A stretch of DNA of 10,321 nt from Brevundimonas sp. (GTDB taxonomy: Bacteria; Pseudomonadota; Alphaproteobacteria; Caulobacterales; Caulobacteraceae). The translations under genes were made by a program, and so were the position numbers. Location: contig NZ_JAVHLH010000086.1 in assembly GCF_031082345.1 (NCBI RefSeq), positions 1 through 10,321 of the forward strand, given 5' to 3'. Below are positions 1,694-8,594 of the stretch, in pieces. The stretch's first letter is position 1. The number at the start of each line of letters is the position of its first letter. The notes under the pieces were generated by a model. That model searched no databases and was not told where the DNA came from. It saw only the letters and a program-made list of their open reading frames with translations.

Positions 1694-2896
1694 ATGCGTG
1701 AAGCGGTGATCGTATCGACGGCCCGGACCCCGATCGGGCGGGCCTATCGCGGGGCGTTCAACGACACCCAGGCGCAGCAGCTGGGTGGCCACGCCATCCG
1801 GCACGCCGTCGCCCGCTCGGGCGTCGATCCGGCCGAGATCGAGGACGTGGTCATGGGCGCGGCCCTGCAGCAGGGCTCGACCGGCACCAACATCGGACGG
1901 CAGGCGGCCCTGGCCGCAGGCCTGCCGGTCACTACGGCGGGCATGAGCCTCGATCGCCAGTGCGCCTCGGGCCTGATGGCCATCGCCACGGCCGCCAAAC
2001 AGGTCACCCACGACGGCCAGGTCGTCGCCGTCGGCGGCGGGCTGGAGTCGGTGTCCCTGGTGCAGAACCAGAACATGAACCTGTTCCGCCTGCGCGATCC
2101 GGACCTGCTGAAGCTTCAGCCGCACATCTATATGTCGATGCTGGAGACGGCCGAGGTCGTCGCCGCCCGCTACGGCATATCCCGCGAGGCCCAGGACGAA
2201 TACGCCCTGCGCTCCCAGCAGCGCACCGCCGCCGCCCAGGCCGAGGGCCGGCTCGACGCCGAGATCGTGCCCATGACCACCACCATGCAGGTGATGGACA
2301 AGGCCACCGGCCAGGCTTCGGCGAAAGAGGTCACCCTGGCGAAGGACGAAGGCAATCGCCCCGACACCACCCTCGAAGGCCTGTCCTCGCTGAAACCGGT
2401 CTTCGGCGGCGGTGAGGCGATCAAGGAGGGCCGCTTCATCACCGCCGGCAACGCCAGCCAGCTGTCGGACGGCGCCTCCGCCAGCGTCGTCATGGAGGCG
2501 AAGGAGGCGGAACGCCGCGGCCTCCAGCCGCTGGGCGCCTTCCGCGGCATGGCGGTGGCCGGCTGCGAGCCGGACGAAATGGGCATCGGCCCCGTCTTCG
2601 CCGTGCCCCGCCTGCTGGAGCGCCACGGCCTGAGCGTCGACGACATCGGCATCTGGGAGCTGAACGAGGCCTTCGCGGTGCAGGTGATCTACTGCCGCGA
2701 CCGGCTCGGCATCCCCGACGACCGGCTCAACGTCTCGGGCGGGGCCATTTCGATCGGCCACCCCTACGGCATGTCCGGCGCGCGGATGACCGGCCATGTG
2801 CTGATCGAGGGCAAGCGGCGCGGCGCGAAATACGGCGTCGTCACCATGTGCGTCGGCGGCGGCATGGGCGCGGCGGGTCTTATCGAAATCTACTAG
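1694..2896 (+). CDS. Thiolase (acetyl-CoA C-acyltransferase)
   Basis: A 400-residue thiolase of normal family length. It catalyses CoA-dependent cleavage of 3-ketoacyl-CoA or the reverse Claisen condensation. The nucleophile is Cys90 in DRQCASG. NEAF is at 324-327, the active-site His356 lies in GHPYG, and the proton-donor Cys386 in [11 protein letters not shown]; all catalytic residues are present. The N-terminus ([18 protein letters not shown]) is also typical. GGAG at 1683-1686 lies seven bases from the ATG. It probably forms an operon with the preceding dehydrogenase, together giving the last two steps of a beta-oxidation-type cycle. Whether it is degradative or biosynthetic cannot be settled from sequence alone. 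The last codons (GGT CTT ATC GAA ATC TAC TAG) use A/T third positions unlike the rest of the gene, and a second copy of this tail follows downstream (2954-2983). Confidence 0.95.
2867..2896 (+). repeat. Thiolase tail, copy 1 (used by the current gene)
   Basis: These are the final nine codons plus stop of the present thiolase, encoding GAAGLIEIY. Compared with the downstream copy at 2954-2983, every difference is silent: GCG/GCC, GGT/GGC, CTT/CTG, GAA/GAG and the stop TAG/TGA. Copy 1 carries the less GC-rich codons, unusual for this window. Confidence 0.85.
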
Positions 2897-2927
2897 CCGG
2901 TCAGCCGCGCCCATCACTGGGAGGGTG

Positions 2928-2950
2928 ACCGAACCGCTACGCGGTTCGGT
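2928..2950. repeat. Perfect 10-bp-stem hairpin between convergent genes (REP-like or terminator)
   Basis: Arm ACCGAACCGC (2928-2937) and its exact reverse complement (2941-2950) are separated by the loop TAC (2938-2940). There is no T-run on either strand, so a classical intrinsic terminator is not clear. It sits 31 bp after the thiolase stop and 27 bp beyond the end of the convergent regulator gene, where it could end transcription from both sides or protect mRNA 3' ends. The core CCGC-TAC-GCGG recurs at 9749-9759, next to another convergent gene end, so a dispersed palindromic repeat family is plausible. Confidence 0.6.
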
Positions 2951-2953
2951 TGC

Positions 2954-2983
2954 GGCGCCGCGGGCCTGATCGAGATCTACTGA
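2954..2983 (+). repeat. Thiolase tail, copy 2 (orphan in-frame copy overlapping the regulator gene end)
   Basis: This encodes [13 protein letters not shown] again, in the same reading frame as the thiolase and exactly 87 bp (29 codons) downstream of copy 1. Its TGA (2981-2983) and Tyr codon overlap the antisense stop codon of the WYL regulator (2979-2977). Deleting 2867-2953 on paper gives a normal 400-residue thiolase with a G/C-rich tail that overlaps the convergent gene by 7 bp. I therefore read copy 2 as the likely ancestral end. The duplication is seen directly; its history is inference. Confidence 0.8.
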
Positions 2984-3705
2984 GGCCGCGGCGGCGGGCC
3001 GTCGCAGCCCCGCGCCGTCCACTCGGCCTCCTTGGCCGCCTGCCAGCGCGCGCGCAGCACCGCGGGCCGGCCGGGATAGCGCTCCTCCAGATAGGCGGCC
3101 TCCGCGACCCGGTCGGTGCGGAAGGTGCGGAAGTCGCCGCGCAGTTCGCACCAGCCGACCAGCAGCCGCGTCGTCTCGCGGTAGCCGATCAGGAACGGCC
3201 AGATGACACGCCGGGTCTCCCGCTCCTGTTCGTCGCGGTAGAGCAGCTCCAGCTTGCGCCCGGCGTGGATCGAGGCCCGCACCCGGGCCATGTCCAGCGC
3301 GTCGTCCTTGCGCGGCTCCCACACCGGCGGACTGGCCACGGCCGGCTCCAGCACCACCGGCCGCAGCCGTTCCGGCACGGTGGCGGCGATCTTGGCGACC
3401 AGATCGCGCGCGGCGCGGGCCAGGGCCGGATCGCCACGCCCCGCCACCCACTGCGCCCCCAGCACCGCCGCCTCGATCTCGTCCGAAGTCAGCATCAGCG
3501 GCGGCAGGTCGAAGCCGCCTTCCAGCACATAGCCTAGGCCCGCCTCGCCCCGGATCGGCACCCGCTGGCCCATCAGGGTGGCGATGTCGCGATAGATGGT
3601 GCGCTTCGAGGTCTCCAGCTCGGCCGCCATGGCGTCGGCCGTCAGCGGCTTCGACGAGCGCCTCAGCACCTGGATGATCTGGAACAGCCGGTCCGCGCGT
3701 CTCAT
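2977..3705 (-). CDS. YafY/WYL-family transcriptional regulator
   Basis: A 242-residue protein. Residues about 3-55 form a winged helix-turn-helix, with recognition-helix sequence SKRTIYRDI at 33-41 and the wing near GEAGLGYVLEGGFDLPPL, typical of the HTH_11-plus-WYL architecture. Residues about 137-203 match a WYL ligand-sensing domain (KLELLYRDEQ, RRVIWPFLIGYRE, RTFRTDRV), but the name-giving Trp-Tyr-Leu tripeptide reads Arg-Leu-Leu (180-182). The ATG at 3705 is preferred over an in-frame ATG at 3738: the latter lies inside the palindrome at 3725-3750 and has no ribosome-binding site, and homology starts at RRADRLFQIIQ. Such proteins usually repress or activate an adjacent gene, here probably the divergent GST, and often themselves. 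The ligand is unknown. The 3' end overlaps the orphan thiolase tail. Confidence 0.9.
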   Translation of the reverse strand: MRRADRLFQIIQVLRRSSKPLTADAMAAELETSKRTIYRDIATLMGQRVPIRGEAGLGYVLEGGFDLPPLMLTSDEIEAAVLGAQWVAGRGDPALARAARDLVAKIAATVPERLRPVVLEPAVASPPVWEPRKDDALDMARVRASIHAGRKLELLYRDEQERETRRVIWPFLIGYRETTRLLVGWCELRGDFRTFRTDRVAEAAYLEERYPGRPAVLRARWQAAKEAEWTARGCDGPPPRPQ

Positions 3706-3724
3706 TCCGCCAGTCTCGTGTACG

Positions 3725-3750
3725 CCTGCTGACAGCATGCTGGCAGCAGG
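3725..3750. promoter_or_regulatory. Probable operator: 26-bp near-perfect palindrome between WYL regulator and GST
   Basis: The two 13-bp halves, centred on GCATGC, match with a single mispaired position; the outer arms are CCTGCTG and CAGCAGG. It lies 19 bp upstream of the regulator ATG and about 57 bp upstream of the GST ATG. A second pairing, CTGACA (3729-3734) with TGTCAG (3752-3757), overlaps it. On the minus strand a -35-like TTGACT (3764-3759) lies just upstream, so a protein bound here would block the regulator's promoter and could act on the GST promoter too. The binder is most simply the WYL regulator itself. The symmetry is seen; the function is inference. Confidence 0.6.
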
Positions 3751-4425: not shown

Positions 4426-5850
4426 TCAGGCGGCGTCGCCGGCGGCCCCGGCCTCGCCCCCGGCCGGTTTCACCACGGCCGTCAGGGACGCCACGAAGTC
4501 GTCGCGCCAGATGCCGACGTCGGTGTCGCGCACCACCTTCATCAGGCACTCCCACTTCCGCTTGCGTTCCGCCAGCGGCATGGTCAGGGCCCGTTTGATG
4601 GCGTCGGACAGCTCCTCACGGCTGAACGGATTGACCAGCAGGGCCTCGCCCATCTGCTCCGCCGCGCCCGCGAAGCGCGACAGCACGAGCACGCCGGGAT
4701 CATCGGGATTCTGGGCGGCGATATACTCCTTGGCGACGAGGTTCATGCCGTCCCGCAGGGGAGTCACCAGGCCGACCCGGGCGGCGCGATAGATGCCCGC
4801 CAGCTGGTCCCGGCGGTAGGTGCGGTTCAGGTAGCGGACCGGCTGCCAGTCCATGTCCGCGTATTCGCCGTTGACCCGTCCCGCGAGCGCGTCGAGGCGC
4901 CCGCGGATGTCCTGGTAGGTGTCGACATCGTCGCGGCTGATCGGCGTCACCTGCAGCAGGAACACCTCGCCGCGCATGTCGGGATTGTCCTCGAGGAACT
5001 GCTCATAACCCAGCAGCCGCTCCTCCAGCCCCTTGGAGTAATCCAGCCGGTCGACGCCGACGATCATCGACCGGAAGGCGGACGACGCCGCCATGCGGTC
5101 GTAGGTGCGCGCGCCGAAGGTCGAATTGCGGGCGGCCAGGAAGGCCTCCACGTCGATGCCGATCGGGAAAACCCCGGTCTGGACGGTCTTGCCGAAGGCC
5201 TCGAGCGCGTCATTGGGCAGAAGCCGGCCGTGCACGCTCGGCTCCGACGCCACATAGTCCCGGAACAGGTCCAGCCACTCCCGCGTCTGGAAGCCGATCA
5301 GGTCGTAGTCGAACATCGACTCCACCAGACGCCGGTGGTGGGGCAGGGTGACCAGCAGCTGCCGCGCCGGCCACGGCGTGTGCAGGAAGAAGCCGATGCG
5401 GTTCTTCACGCCCAGCCGCCGCAGGTCCCGGGCCAGCGGGATCATGTGGTAGTCGTGAATCCAGACCAGGTCGTCGGGATTCAGCAGCGGGGCCAGCACC
5501 TCGGCGAACCGCGCGTTGGTCCGCTCATAGCCCTCGCCATACGACCGCTCATAGGCGGTCAGGTCGACGCGGTGGTGGAACAGCGGCCACAGGGTCTTGT
5601 TGGCGTAGCCGTTGTAATATTCCTCGACGTCCTGGGCCTCGAGGTCGACCAGGGCGACGGTCACGCCGGCCCGGTCCTCGATCTTGGCCTCGGGGACAAA
5701 GGTCTCGACCGTTTCCCCGGACCAGCCGAACCACAGGCCGTCGTACTTCCTCAGGGCCGCCGACAACGCCATCGCCAGCCCGCCGGCCGAGCCCGCGGCG
5801 GGGTCTTTCGGCGCGGACACGCGGTTCGAAACGACGATCAGACGGCTCAT
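4426..5850 (-). CDS. otsA: Alpha,alpha-trehalose-phosphate synthase (UDP-forming), GT20
   Basis: A 474-residue cytosolic retaining glycosyltransferase that joins UDP-glucose and glucose 6-phosphate into trehalose 6-phosphate. Family motifs appear in order: SNRV (8-11) with Arg10; GGLA (23-26); WFGWSGET (40-47); HDYHMIPLA (132-140); FFLHTPWP (154-161); GVDRLDYSKGL (265-275), with Arg268 and Lys273 contacting the UDP phosphates; and DGMNLVAKEY (367-376), with Asp367 and Glu375. All expected active-site residues are there and the length is normal. The acidic/Ala-rich last dozen residues are not conserved. It is the third gene of the otsB-GH15-otsA operon. No clear Shine-Dalgarno site precedes the ATG. 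Instead a C-rich run and a possible GGGG/CCCC hairpin (5851-5865) abut it, and its ATG overlaps the TGA of an 18-codon ORF, so translation may depend on coupling. Confidence 0.97.
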   Translation of the reverse strand: MSRLIVVSNRVSAPKDPAAGSAGGLAMALSAALRKYDGLWFGWSGETVETFVPEAKIEDRAGVTVALVDLEAQDVEEYYNGYANKTLWPLFHHRVDLTAYERSYGEGYERTNARFAEVLAPLLNPDDLVWIHDYHMIPLARDLRRLGVKNRIGFFLHTPWPARQLLVTLPHHRRLVESMFDYDLIGFQTREWLDLFRDYVASEPSVHGRLLPNDALEAFGKTVQTGVFPIGIDVEAFLAARNSTFGARTYDRMAASSAFRSMIVGVDRLDYSKGLEERLLGYEQFLEDNPDMRGEVFLLQVTPISRDDVDTYQDIRGRLDALAGRVNGEYADMDWQPVRYLNRTYRRDQLAGIYRAARVGLVTPLRDGMNLVAKEYIAAQNPDDPGVLVLSRFAGAAEQMGEALLVNPFSREELSDAIKRALTMPLAERKRKWECLMKVVRDTDVGIWRDDFVASLTAVVKPAGGEAGAAGDAA

Positions 5851-5903
5851 GGGGAGGAAACCCCCGTCGGCGTCGCGAGGTCCATCTCGTTGAATCCGCT
5901 CAT
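5847..5903 (-). CDS. Possible 18-codon coupling ORF between GH15 and otsA
   Basis: It encodes MSGFNEMDLATPTGVSSP. Its ATG (5903-5901) overlaps the GH15 stop as ATGA, and its TGA (5849-5847) overlaps the otsA ATG as ATGA. It exactly fills the only gap in an otherwise overlapping operon. It has no convincing ribosome-binding site of its own and no recognisable domain, so it would have to be translated by ribosomes finishing the GH15 gene. Its likely value is to carry ribosomes to otsA, whose own start lacks a Shine-Dalgarno site. The same frame is also open far upstream by GC bias, so chance cannot be excluded. Confidence 0.35.
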   Translation of the reverse strand: MSGFNEMDLATPTGVSSP

Positions 5904-7684
5904 CTGGCGTCCGTCCACGACCGGCTCAGCAGGACGGCGCAGTTGATGATGCCGACGAGCGAATAGGTCTGCGGGTAGTTGCCCCACAGTTCGTTGTCGC
6001 CCAGCGATATGTCCTCCGACAGCAGGCCCGCGTGGGTCCTCCGGCTCAGCATCTCCTCGAAGATCTCCCGCGCCTCCTCGGTCCGGCCGTTCAGATGCAG
6101 GGCCTCGATGAACCAGAAGGTGCAGAAGTTGAACGCGGTCTCGGGCTCGCCGAAATCGTCCGCCTCGACGTAGCGGAACAGGTACGGACCCTTCTTCAGG
6201 TCGCGCTCGATGGCCTCGAAGGTCTTCACCTGCCGCGGGTCCAGCGGATCGAGGAAGCCGAGGTCGGTGAGCTGCAGCAAGGAGGCGTCCAGCTCGCGGT
6301 TGCCGAAGCTGGCCGCGAACCGTCCCTCGTCCGGCAGGAAGGCGTCGGCCTCGATCCGTTGCCGGATGATCTGCGCCCGTTCCCGCCACACGTCGCCGCG
6401 CGAGGCCACGCCCAGATGGTCCGCCGCCTTGGCCAGCCGGTCGCAGGCCGCCCAGCACATCACCGACGAATAGGTGTGCACCCGGGCGATGGTGCGGAAC
6501 TCCCACAGTCCGGCGTCGACCTGGTCGTGCATGGCGAAGGCGCGTTCGCCGACCTTTTCCAGCGCATGGAAGTCCTCGATCGTGCCGGGCCGAAGCAGCC
6601 GCTGGTCATAGAAGGTCTGAACCAGCGGCAACACGATCTGGCCGTAGACGTCGTGCTGCAGGTGCTCGTGCGCCTGGTTGCCGATGCGCACCGGCTTCAT
6701 GCCGCGGTAGCCCTCGACGCTGTCGATGATCCGCTCGCCGATGCCGGGCTCCAGCCCGACGCCGTAGACCGGCTGGACGTGGCCGCCGGCCGAGTCGTCG
6801 ACGAGGTTGCGCAGGTAGCCGAGATAGTTCTCGAGCAGATCGACCGCGCCCAGCCGGTTCAGGGCCCGCACCACATAGTAGGCGTCGCGGATCCAGCAGT
6901 AGCGGTAGTCCCAATTGCGTCCGCTCTCCGGAAACTCGGGCACCGAGGTCGTCAGGGCCGCCACGATCGCGCCCGTTTCCTCATAGGCGCACAGCTTCAG
7001 GGTGATGGCCGCGCGGATCACCGCCTCCTGCCAGTCCAGCGGCAGATAGAGGGTGCGGACCCAGTTCTGCCAATAGGCCACGGTGCGGTCGTAGGCGGCC
7101 GCCACGCCGGGCCCGACATCCTCGTCGTAACCCTCGTCAGGCCCGAGGAAGAAGGCGTACGGCCGCTCCAGCCGGAAGATGCGCTCGTTGAGGATATGCG
7201 ACACCGGGCAGTCGGTGGTCAGCCGGAAGGTCACGTCGGTGCACATATAGCGGATATGGTTCGAGCCGCTGGTCCGCTCCGCCGGGCGCGCGCCCCAGTC
7301 GGCCGAGGGCCGCAGCCGCACCTTGATGCGCGGCGAGCCTTCCAGCGGCCGCACGGTCCGCGCGAACGCCAGCGGGCGATAGGTGCGGCTGTGCTTGGGA
7401 TGACGCGGCGCGAAGTCGATGATCTCGACCGCGGCGCCGTCCTCCGCCGTCAGCACGGTCCTCAGCACCGGCGTGTTGCGGACATAGGCCTGGCTGACGT
7501 GCTTCAGCCCCTCCAGCTCGATGTCCCAGAAGCCGTGGCCCGGATCGCTCCCGTCCATCAGGGCGGAAAAGACCGGATCGCCGTCCACCCTCGGCGCGCA
7601 GGCCCAGACATAGCGGCCATTGCGGTCGATCAGGGCGCTGACCGAGCAATTGCCGATCGGCGCGAGGTCCAGGTTCGGGGTCAT
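5900..7684 (-). CDS. Glycoside hydrolase family 15 protein (glucoamylase/trehalase-like)
   Basis: A 594-residue cytosolic-type protein without signal peptide. Residues 1-about 210 form the N-terminal beta-sandwich typical of bacterial GH15 (PIGNCSVSALIDRNGRYVW, VEIIDFAPRH). Residues about 220-590 form the (alpha/alpha)6 catalytic barrel, with the signature SGRNWDYRYCWIRDA (254-268), DAGLWEFR (390-397; Glu395 probable catalytic acid), SEDI (556-559; Glu557 probable base) and GNYPQTYSLVGII (568-580). Members cleave terminal alpha-glucosyl linkages, and some actinobacterial relatives hydrolyse trehalose. Sitting between otsB and otsA, it probably acts on trehalose or short alpha-glucans in the same pathway, but the substrate cannot be read from sequence. 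Its ATG overlaps the otsB TGA (ATGA, 7684-7681), indicating translational coupling, and its own stop overlaps the mini-ORF start. Confidence 0.93.
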   Translation of the reverse strand: MTPNLDLAPIGNCSVSALIDRNGRYVWACAPRVDGDPVFSALMDGSDPGHGFWDIELEGLKHVSQAYVRNTPVLRTVLTAEDGAAVEIIDFAPRHPKHSRTYRPLAFARTVRPLEGSPRIKVRLRPSADWGARPAERTSGSNHIRYMCTDVTFRLTTDCPVSHILNERIFRLERPYAFFLGPDEGYDEDVGPGVAAAYDRTVAYWQNWVRTLYLPLDWQEAVIRAAITLKLCAYEETGAIVAALTTSVPEFPESGRNWDYRYCWIRDAYYVVRALNRLGAVDLLENYLGYLRNLVDDSAGGHVQPVYGVGLEPGIGERIIDSVEGYRGMKPVRIGNQAHEHLQHDVYGQIVLPLVQTFYDQRLLRPGTIEDFHALEKVGERAFAMHDQVDAGLWEFRTIARVHTYSSVMCWAACDRLAKAADHLGVASRGDVWRERAQIIRQRIEADAFLPDEGRFAASFGNRELDASLLQLTDLGFLDPLDPRQVKTFEAIERDLKKGPYLFRYVEADDFGEPETAFNFCTFWFIEALHLNGRTEEAREIFEEMLSRRTHAGLLSEDISLGDNELWGNYPQTYSLVGIINCAVLLSRSWTDAR

Positions 7685-8469
7685 TCACGCTCCTCGACGG
7701 CGTTCAGCCAGGCCAGCACGGCGTCCACGTCGGGCAGGCCGTAGCGGGCGGCGGTTTCACGGGGCGGCCCGACCAGAACGCCGAAGCCGCCGAGTGTCTC
7801 CGCGGCGCGAAAGCCGTCCTCGTCCGTCAGATCGTCGCCCAGCATGACCGGAACGGCGCCGGCGAACGGAGGCTCCTGCATGAAGGCCTTCAGCGCCGTG
7901 CCCTTGCTGGTTCCCGGGGTCTTGAGCTCCACCACCAGATTGCCGGCCTGCAGCGCCAGGCCGGTCTGGCCGGCCAGGTCTTTGGCCAGCGCCAACGCCG
8001 CCTCGCCCTCCGCCGGGGCGCCGCGGTAGTGCAGACCGGCCGACACCGCCTTGTCCTCGACGATGATGCCGGGGCGGGTGCGGGCGAAGGCCTCGAAGGC
8101 GGCCACGGCGTCCCGCACCGCCGGGTCGGCCTCGGCGCGATCCAGCGAGCCGTCCGCCCGGCGTCGTTCCAGCCCGTGCACGCCGGAGGCCGAGGCGGCG
8201 CTGGCCTCGGCGATGCGGTCGATCTCGGCGATGGTCCGGCCGCTGATGATGGCGACCCGTCCGTCCAGCCGCCCGGCCACGGCCCGCAGCGCCGCCGTCC
8301 GCTCCGGATGGGGCACGACGGCGTCCGGCGTCTCGGCCAGCGGAGCCAGCACTCCGTCCATGTCCAGGAACAGGGCCGGCCGCGGCAGGCGGATGGGGGG
8401 CGGCGGCAGATGCGAGGCGGAAGCGAGCGGCGCGGGCGCGCCGTCGGCGATCAGGTTTGAAATCCGCAT
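7681..8469 (-). CDS. otsB: Trehalose-6-phosphate phosphatase
   Basis: A 262-residue HAD-superfamily phosphatase converting trehalose 6-phosphate to trehalose. HAD motif I is DMDG (36-39), with nucleophile Asp36 and acid Asp38. Motif II is ISGR (75-78), with Ser76. The motif III lysine is probably Lys189 in TSKG, and motif IV is GDDLTDEDGF (211-220). A small cap domain lies about 100-180 (VEDKAVSAGLHYR is typical of OtsB). It is the first gene of the trehalose operon; the end overlaps the GH15 ATG. The start is uncertain. ATG 8469 fits family length but has only a weak AAGAGG one base away. An in-frame ATG at 8529 has GGGAG nine bases upstream and would add 20 residues without recognisable homology. 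Confidence 0.95.
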   Translation of the reverse strand: MRISNLIADGAPAPLASASHLPPPPIRLPRPALFLDMDGVLAPLAETPDAVVPHPERTAALRAVAGRLDGRVAIISGRTIAEIDRIAEASAASASGVHGLERRRADGSLDRAEADPAVRDAVAAFEAFARTRPGIIVEDKAVSAGLHYRGAPAEGEAALALAKDLAGQTGLALQAGNLVVELKTPGTSKGTALKAFMQEPPFAGAVPVMLGDDLTDEDGFRAAETLGGFGVLVGPPRETAARYGLPDVDAVLAWLNAVEERE

Positions 8470-8594
8470 GGCCTCTTCTAACGCAGTCCTGCGGCAAAGG
8501 TTGACCCCGCCCGGCGCTTTTTCTCGCATTGCAGCAATCTCCCGAACCCGCTCCGGCGATTGTGAATCTCCGCCCGATGCGCCACATCGCGGGA

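Follow-up and report, generated by a model that had tools for sequence, protein, structure and literature searches.

The doubled end of a thiolase gene from Brevundimonas sp. is one copy of a module, T1-T'-H-T2, that recurs behind thiolase genes of related bacteria. The coding tail of the gene (T1) is followed, shortly beyond the stop codon, by a copy of itself in inverted orientation (T'), then by a hairpin (H) and a second, forward copy of the tail (T2). Folding predictions place one hairpin of the module around the stop codon and give a second one, and recombination between the direct tail copies is the likely means by which the module is gained, lost or multiplied, a reading to which a probability of about 0.6 is given. 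The reading draws on the anatomy of the module, its recurrence, arrays with three tails, empty sites, scattered presence, an inverted arm that tracks codons of the host gene and paired changes in both stems. To date it has been seen behind no genes other than thiolase genes, all from the order that includes Caulobacter and Brevundimonas. It is best read as a structure of old origin at the thiolase stop codon, with turnover by recombination between the tail copies. The titles and abstract beginnings of the articles found in the searches made contain no description of such a thiolase tail element.

In the window, which is the whole stretch of 10,321 nucleotides analysed, the thiolase gene (1694..2896, plus strand) encodes an acetyl-CoA C-acyltransferase (Pfam Thiolase_N and Thiolase_C; NCBIfam NF005494, 619.5 bits with a cut-off of 615) and ends in T1 (2867..2896, plus strand), the coding tail GAAGLIEIY with the stop codon TAG. 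The same residues are encoded again in T2 (2954..2983, plus strand), at an offset of 87 bp and with the stop codon TGA. The two tails differ in four codons, all silently (GCG/GCC, GGT/GGC, CTT/CTG and GAA/GAG). A convergent gene for a WYL-domain regulator (2977..3738, minus strand; Pfam HTH_11 and WYL) has its stop codon at 2977-2979 and overlaps T2 by 7 bp. The first-pass annotation had reported the doubled tail with its silent differences, the overlap with the WYL stop codon and a hairpin inside the spacer; the first was confirmed exactly and the other two were borne out, the hairpin H (2925..2953, plus strand) having a 13-bp stem (2925-2937/2941-2953) and a 3-base loop. It had missed the inverted copy of the tail start, T' or A' (2904..2914, plus strand; GCCGCGCCCAT), which is the exact reverse complement of 2864-2874 and is an element also found in relatives. 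The segment at 2864..2874 (plus strand; ATGGGCGCGGC), within the coding tail, is the 5' arm (A) of the stop-codon hairpin and pairs with 2904-2914 in the predicted fold. Elsewhere in the window, a trehalose-type cluster with adjoining genes for glycosyltransferase family 20, glycosyl hydrolase family 15 and trehalose-phosphatase occupies 4426-8529 on the minus strand.

The T' of the window is an 11-base inverted copy in which the outer arm alone is clear and the inner arm is absent. In its fuller form, T' is an inverted tail copy in two sub-arms with a bulge of 3-4 bases between them, and this bulge recurs in Brevundimonas-like, Caulobacter-like, Phenylobacterium-like and f5 examples (7/8 alignments and 3/4 folds). 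Three modules chosen for a long T', two Caulobacter-like and one paralog (L265, L268 and L295), have fold z-scores of -7.9 to -9.9 and are predicted to fold into a single long hairpin, which has the stop codon at the tip and lies ahead of H. The fold of the window, with a z-score of -2.6, retains no more of the first hairpin than its outer 11 bp. When T2 is included, the z-score is -0.92 for the 126-base fold of the window and -2.6, -3.9 and -3.3 for L012, L148 and L062, respectively. The T1-T2 spacing takes values such as 60, 85, 86, 87, 89, 90 and 91 bp and ranges from 60 to 100 bp, second tails having been sought within ~300 bases. A role of H as a transcription terminator was considered and rejected, as the GC-rich T2 follows H and there is no T run. 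By eye, several Caulobacter-like and Phenylobacterium-like loci have a separate GC hairpin with a T run further downstream, whether the module is present or not. A search of Rfam with positions 2600-3300 of the window gave no match at E<=1, and five other loci gave a single sub-threshold snoRNA match (27.2 of 50 bits, L263 at 1066-1150).

The genome collections sampled have one genome per species, and among named genomes the nearest thiolases are those of Brevundimonas. Each of the 131 genomes searched in the genus has a thiolase match, and the best-scoring 90 of the 131 loci were read. A second tail, with a best match of 22-30 of 30 bases at most 300 bases downstream, is found in 20 of these 90, and two of the 20 have three tails. 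The remaining 70 loci have a best tail match of 13-18 of 30, and since intermediate values do not occur the second tails are beyond chance. G050, outside the 90 loci, also has a second tail. The two other genera, one Caulobacter-like (g13, named by guess) and one Phenylobacterium-like (g20, named from L166 of Phenylobacterium sp. Root1290, whose tail and spacer are the same as those of the G298 locus), have second tails in 13/30 and 7/30 loci, the latter comprising six complete modules and one short remnant; these are the 30 best-scoring loci each, of 60 and 55 genomes searched, and favour carriers because the search query itself contained the module. The g20 thiolase paralogs that were selected for near-full-length alignment with the query all have a second tail (7/7). 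A pattern search of 390 genomes of the family matched 19, namely 15 of the genus, 1 of g13 and 3 of g20. A covariance model, which itself includes the tail, gave 17 matches above 45 bits in 150 genomes of the order, all at thiolase tails (16 modules and one single tail of 46.9 bits). Three of these modules (51.8, 83.1 and 84.8 bits) belong to two other families, f3 and f5, and in one of them the last tail has drifted. The doubled tail had been regarded as a one-off event, which does not agree with its presence in three genera and two further families; a plain duplication and deletion history was thought to be favoured if relatives had both tails and a spacer of this kind, and a minority of them do.

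Among the 80 thiolase loci from the named-genome search, of which the family contributes at least eight, second tails are found at two, L166 and L207. The one at L207, from Candidatus Rokubacteria, is of a different kind, a ~65-bp tandem repeat that spans the thiolase tail and stop codon with a spacer apparently unrelated to that of the module. The idea that tails are duplicated throughout these genomes was rejected, as only 4/802 ORF ends in 400 kb of G119 have a copy of at least 21 of 30 bases and only 3/560 in 220 kb of G271 have a copy of 22-23 of 30. The best genome-wide case, 27 of 30 at L102 in G119, looks like an intergenic palindromic repeat. At 16653 and 17474 of L102 there are direct repeats of ~50 bp, intergenic-looking and with palindromic parts, one of which holds the stop codon of the ORF with the 27 of 30 tail copy.

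Pairing of the stems was compared in 45 aligned modules, the set of 46 less L262; L010, which has a different spacer, is outside the 46. The outer arm and the inner H stem are paired in 94.5% of cells, in comparison with 30-43% in slid controls. The A:T' helix is paired in 91.5% of cells and the inner 7 bp of H in 99.4%, with both-side changes in six of these seven pairs. Such changes occur in 10 of 18 pairs, with a shuffled mean of 4.6, indicating that the stems are kept as in a structured cis RNA. The inverted arm also tracks the codons of its own host gene. The duplex energy of T' is -35.8 kcal/mol with its own T1 and -30.5 with all others, and none of 5000 within-genus shuffles was as good (shuffle mean about -33.0); for the Caulobacter-like T' the gap is small (-38.6 with own T1 and -37.8 with others). 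At the diagnostic sites where T1 and T2 differ, T' follows T1 at 25, T2 at 9 and neither at 6. The clearest cases are L293 and L330, the latter with 17/17 T' bases matching a T1 of unusual codons while its T2 has drifted. Local complementarity of T1 and T' is at or below the 99% level of shuffled sequence in 22/49 modules. The T1:T' stem contains 22 G-U and 16 A-C oppositions (p = 0.42), and with no significant G-U excess RNA-level and DNA-level causes are not separated. Third-position variation in the tail of Caulobacter-like loci is 0.083 in carriers and 0.333 in non-carriers (0.119 and 0.080 upstream), and this lower tail diversity in carriers is confined to that genus, being absent in the other two.

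Relatives have one, two or three tails, the pattern of a tandem repeat with a variable number of units (VNTR). As the first-pass annotation expected for a locus without the insert, compact empty junctions are seen in relatives by eye. The sequence after the stop codon of single-tail relatives resembles that after the T2 stop codon of carriers (L072/L090, L009/L022, L012/L064 and L017/L051; by eye), which makes the empty sites as precise as those of a transposable element with a target-site duplication. The presence of the module requires 18 changes on the gene tree, with 18.4 for shuffled labels, and is thus scattered as if at random. Within a genome, T1 and T2 have 3.3 differences, and across genomes 5.8 (25 modules). 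In 8/13 Caulobacter-like modules the two are identical over 30 bases, and the two- and three-tail arrays of L062, L083, L299 and L300 have near-identical units. To judge from this anatomy, recombination or slippage between tails would generate arrays of the form T(UT)n, in which n = 0 is the clean gene end; n = 0, 1 or 2 are the sizes clearly seen. In such arrays, the unit could therefore be lost or multiplied without harm to the enzyme.

Possible remnants of the module are found at L247, with two tails 37 bp apart and T'-H missing, at L264 and L037, with T' and no second tail, and at L237, with part of T'. L069, L079, L077, L085 and other single-tail genomes have different palindromic repeats (CTCCTCCC..., GTCATCCT...) near the stop codon, at the place of the module. 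Two silent tail alleles, GGGGCTGCGGGATTG and GGCGCGGCCGGGCTG, are mixed among close relatives (L065, L068, L077, L078 and L098), which hints at exchange of tails.

Spacer distance tracks gene distance in the genus and overall (Mantel p about 0 for both; 0.044 for Caulobacter-like, 0.07 for Phenylobacterium-like loci and 0.32 for paralogs), so much of the history is vertical. Clade tests of a shared history of spacer and gene did not reject it (p 0.209, 0.402 and 0.246). For L238, L232 and L292 kept together on the module tree the p value is 0.002, and this group is also no clade of the gene tree. An apparent case of near modules in genes 34% apart, L238 and L241, came from ungapped distances and was not borne out by the gapped tree. 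Lateral transfer of the module may have occurred.

The silent differences between the tails of the window are part of a wider bias. Over 46 modules, the T1-T2 codon differences are 62 silent and 24 changing, while random change is expected to be 74% changing. This is odd for a decaying copy and would fit two tails that were both once coding ends. The T2 of the window equals the single tail of L018 at 27/27 coding bases and T1 differs from it at four, so T2 is likely the resident end, in support of the earlier proposal that the downstream copy is the original one in this genome. In all five modules with at least three silent codon differences, no other codon change and the stop codon kept (the window, L017, L075, L238 and L241), T2 is closer than T1 to the nearest single tail. 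By ungapped distances, and with the remnant loci L264, L247, L237 and L037 excluded from the single-tail set, the sister tail is nearer to T1 in 14, nearer to T2 in 8 and equally near in 17 of all 39 modules tested, so import is not the general rule. The T1-T' of the window is nearest to those of L012 and L014 and not to that of L011, although L011 is closest by gene among the module-bearing relatives. Recombination with a diverged thiolase, one of the original suggestions, is a fair account of the silent-only differences: in the window, T2 would be resident and T1-T'-H would have entered by such recombination, and the copies would differ at silent sites only because of this origin. Replacement of T1 by recombination may explain the window and some other modules, not all.

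Several other explanations were weighed. Read-through of TAG, giving a 29-codon extension that ends in identical residues, would be allowed by the window, whose tails are 87 bp apart with no in-frame stop codon in the spacer. In contrast, just 9/46 modules have a spacing divisible by three and the T2 stop codon is lost in 5/46; the frame is not kept between the first stop codon and T2, and read-through is therefore refuted, with a negligible probability. It is unlikely that the module is a mobile or homing element whose inverted arm finds thiolase tails and which supplies a ready-made gene end on insertion at the stop codon, as integrative elements restore tRNA ends. The precise filled and empty sites (by eye), the scattered presence and the modules in several paralogs agree with it, as do L232 and L292, paralogs of one genome that differ by 17% over the last 370 gene bases (ungapped) and at only 2/62 bases of the spacer. 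However, the module has no coding capacity, spacer distance tracks gene distance and the tree tests keep a shared history (p 0.40 and 0.25). No full copy of the spacer was found elsewhere in the same genome or of the module in six relative genomes, where short matches to the tail part do occur at other places, and in 23 genomes all seven core hits, in five genomes, are at thiolase tails by a strict pattern that missed the modules of most carriers. In these limited searches, the mobile palindromic segment proposed at the outset is left unsupported, and the several unrelated sites typical of a transposable element were not seen in the genome itself or in the six relatives, with which the strict pattern in 23 genomes agrees.

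A neutral tandem repeat, in which slippage duplicates and deletes the tail with its adjacent hairpin and the copies are alike because they are young, is doubtful. It would account for the near-identical array units and for the identical tails of the eight Caulobacter-like modules. It accounts poorly for spacer motifs and stems that persist across genera and families, for pairing that survives double changes, for a T' that tracks T1 and for the reduced third-position variation in Caulobacter-like carriers, the last of which is absent in the other two genera. Somewhat more credible, and still tentative, is the matching of the arms by mutation alone, through template switching between inverted arms and gene conversion between direct copies, with no use to the cell. 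Inverted and direct copies are both matched, G-U pairs are not in significant excess, and template switching has been proposed to create and maintain hairpins (PMC8794818). On the other hand, the recurrent bulge of 3-4 bases, which pure matching would erase, speaks against mutation as the sole cause, the window itself showing no inner arm.

The preferred reading, a structure around the stop codon that is turned over between tails, includes a putative function in messenger RNA. The folded tail might, for example, present a double-stranded target that responds to the ribosome and determines the 3' end or the lifetime of the messenger. A ribosome at the stop codon would open the first hairpin, and in its closed form this hairpin, whose predicted stem is ~26 bp in L268, would be a natural target of RNase III. 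Use in messenger RNA would keep T' matched to T1, while template switching may supply the matching changes. The unit follows the stop codon and, by eye in several loci of other genera, precedes a terminator-like hairpin with a T run; it would thus belong to the 3' end of the messenger. The absence of the module in most genomes argues against an important function. A bolder and quite speculative extension is that the module mimics a gene end. Because it has the tail of the gene at both ends, such a hairpin cassette would use ordinary homologous recombination to pass from one thiolase gene or species to another and, in the same way, to leave without trace, its inverted arm would be rewritten for each host tail, and it would last across the order, at one gene type, as an RNA switch centred on the stop codon.

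The module offers a natural example of an enzyme gene whose final codons also serve as one arm of a hairpin, in RNA or in DNA. Silent codon choice is here tied to sequence after the stop codon, and the direct tail copies would make the unit removable without damage. Two questions thus become testable at a single locus: the joint evolution of coding tails with 3' structures, and whether host recombination alone can keep a non-coding cassette in play. The locus is also a warning that a doubled gene end is not necessarily a transposon scar or an assembly error.

Among known systems, integrative elements that rebuild the 3' end of their target, a tRNA or protein gene, resemble the module in having a precise insert with a duplicate of the gene end beside it. 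Unlike them, the module has no integrase, no long insert and no copies found elsewhere, and it has an inverted tail arm and a hairpin; within the ~300 bases searched, its tails are 60-100 bp apart with neither a recombinase gene nor a long insert between them. REP/BIME and other dispersed bacterial palindromes are short intergenic hairpins after stop codons, and the module shares with them a short hairpin at such a place. In contrast to REP/BIME, which occur in many copies independent of the neighbouring gene, the module was found only at thiolase tails in the genomes searched. Attenuators, described as competing hairpins of leader RNAs (PMC6649704), have, like the module, three repeats, possible alternative hairpins and one arm in a translated stretch. 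They differ in their leader position, the module being placed where a complete enzyme gene ends, and in the module T' tracks T1 over T2 (25 to 9) and T2 forms no terminator. In the same source, coding palindromes with arms that evolve together are described from Nematomorpha mitochondrial genes, with template switching named as a possible mechanism (PMC6649704). There, as in the module, a protein-coding stretch serves as a hairpin arm; both arms are coding in the palindromes as that text presents them, whereas the second arm of the module lies after the stop codon of one bacterial gene type.
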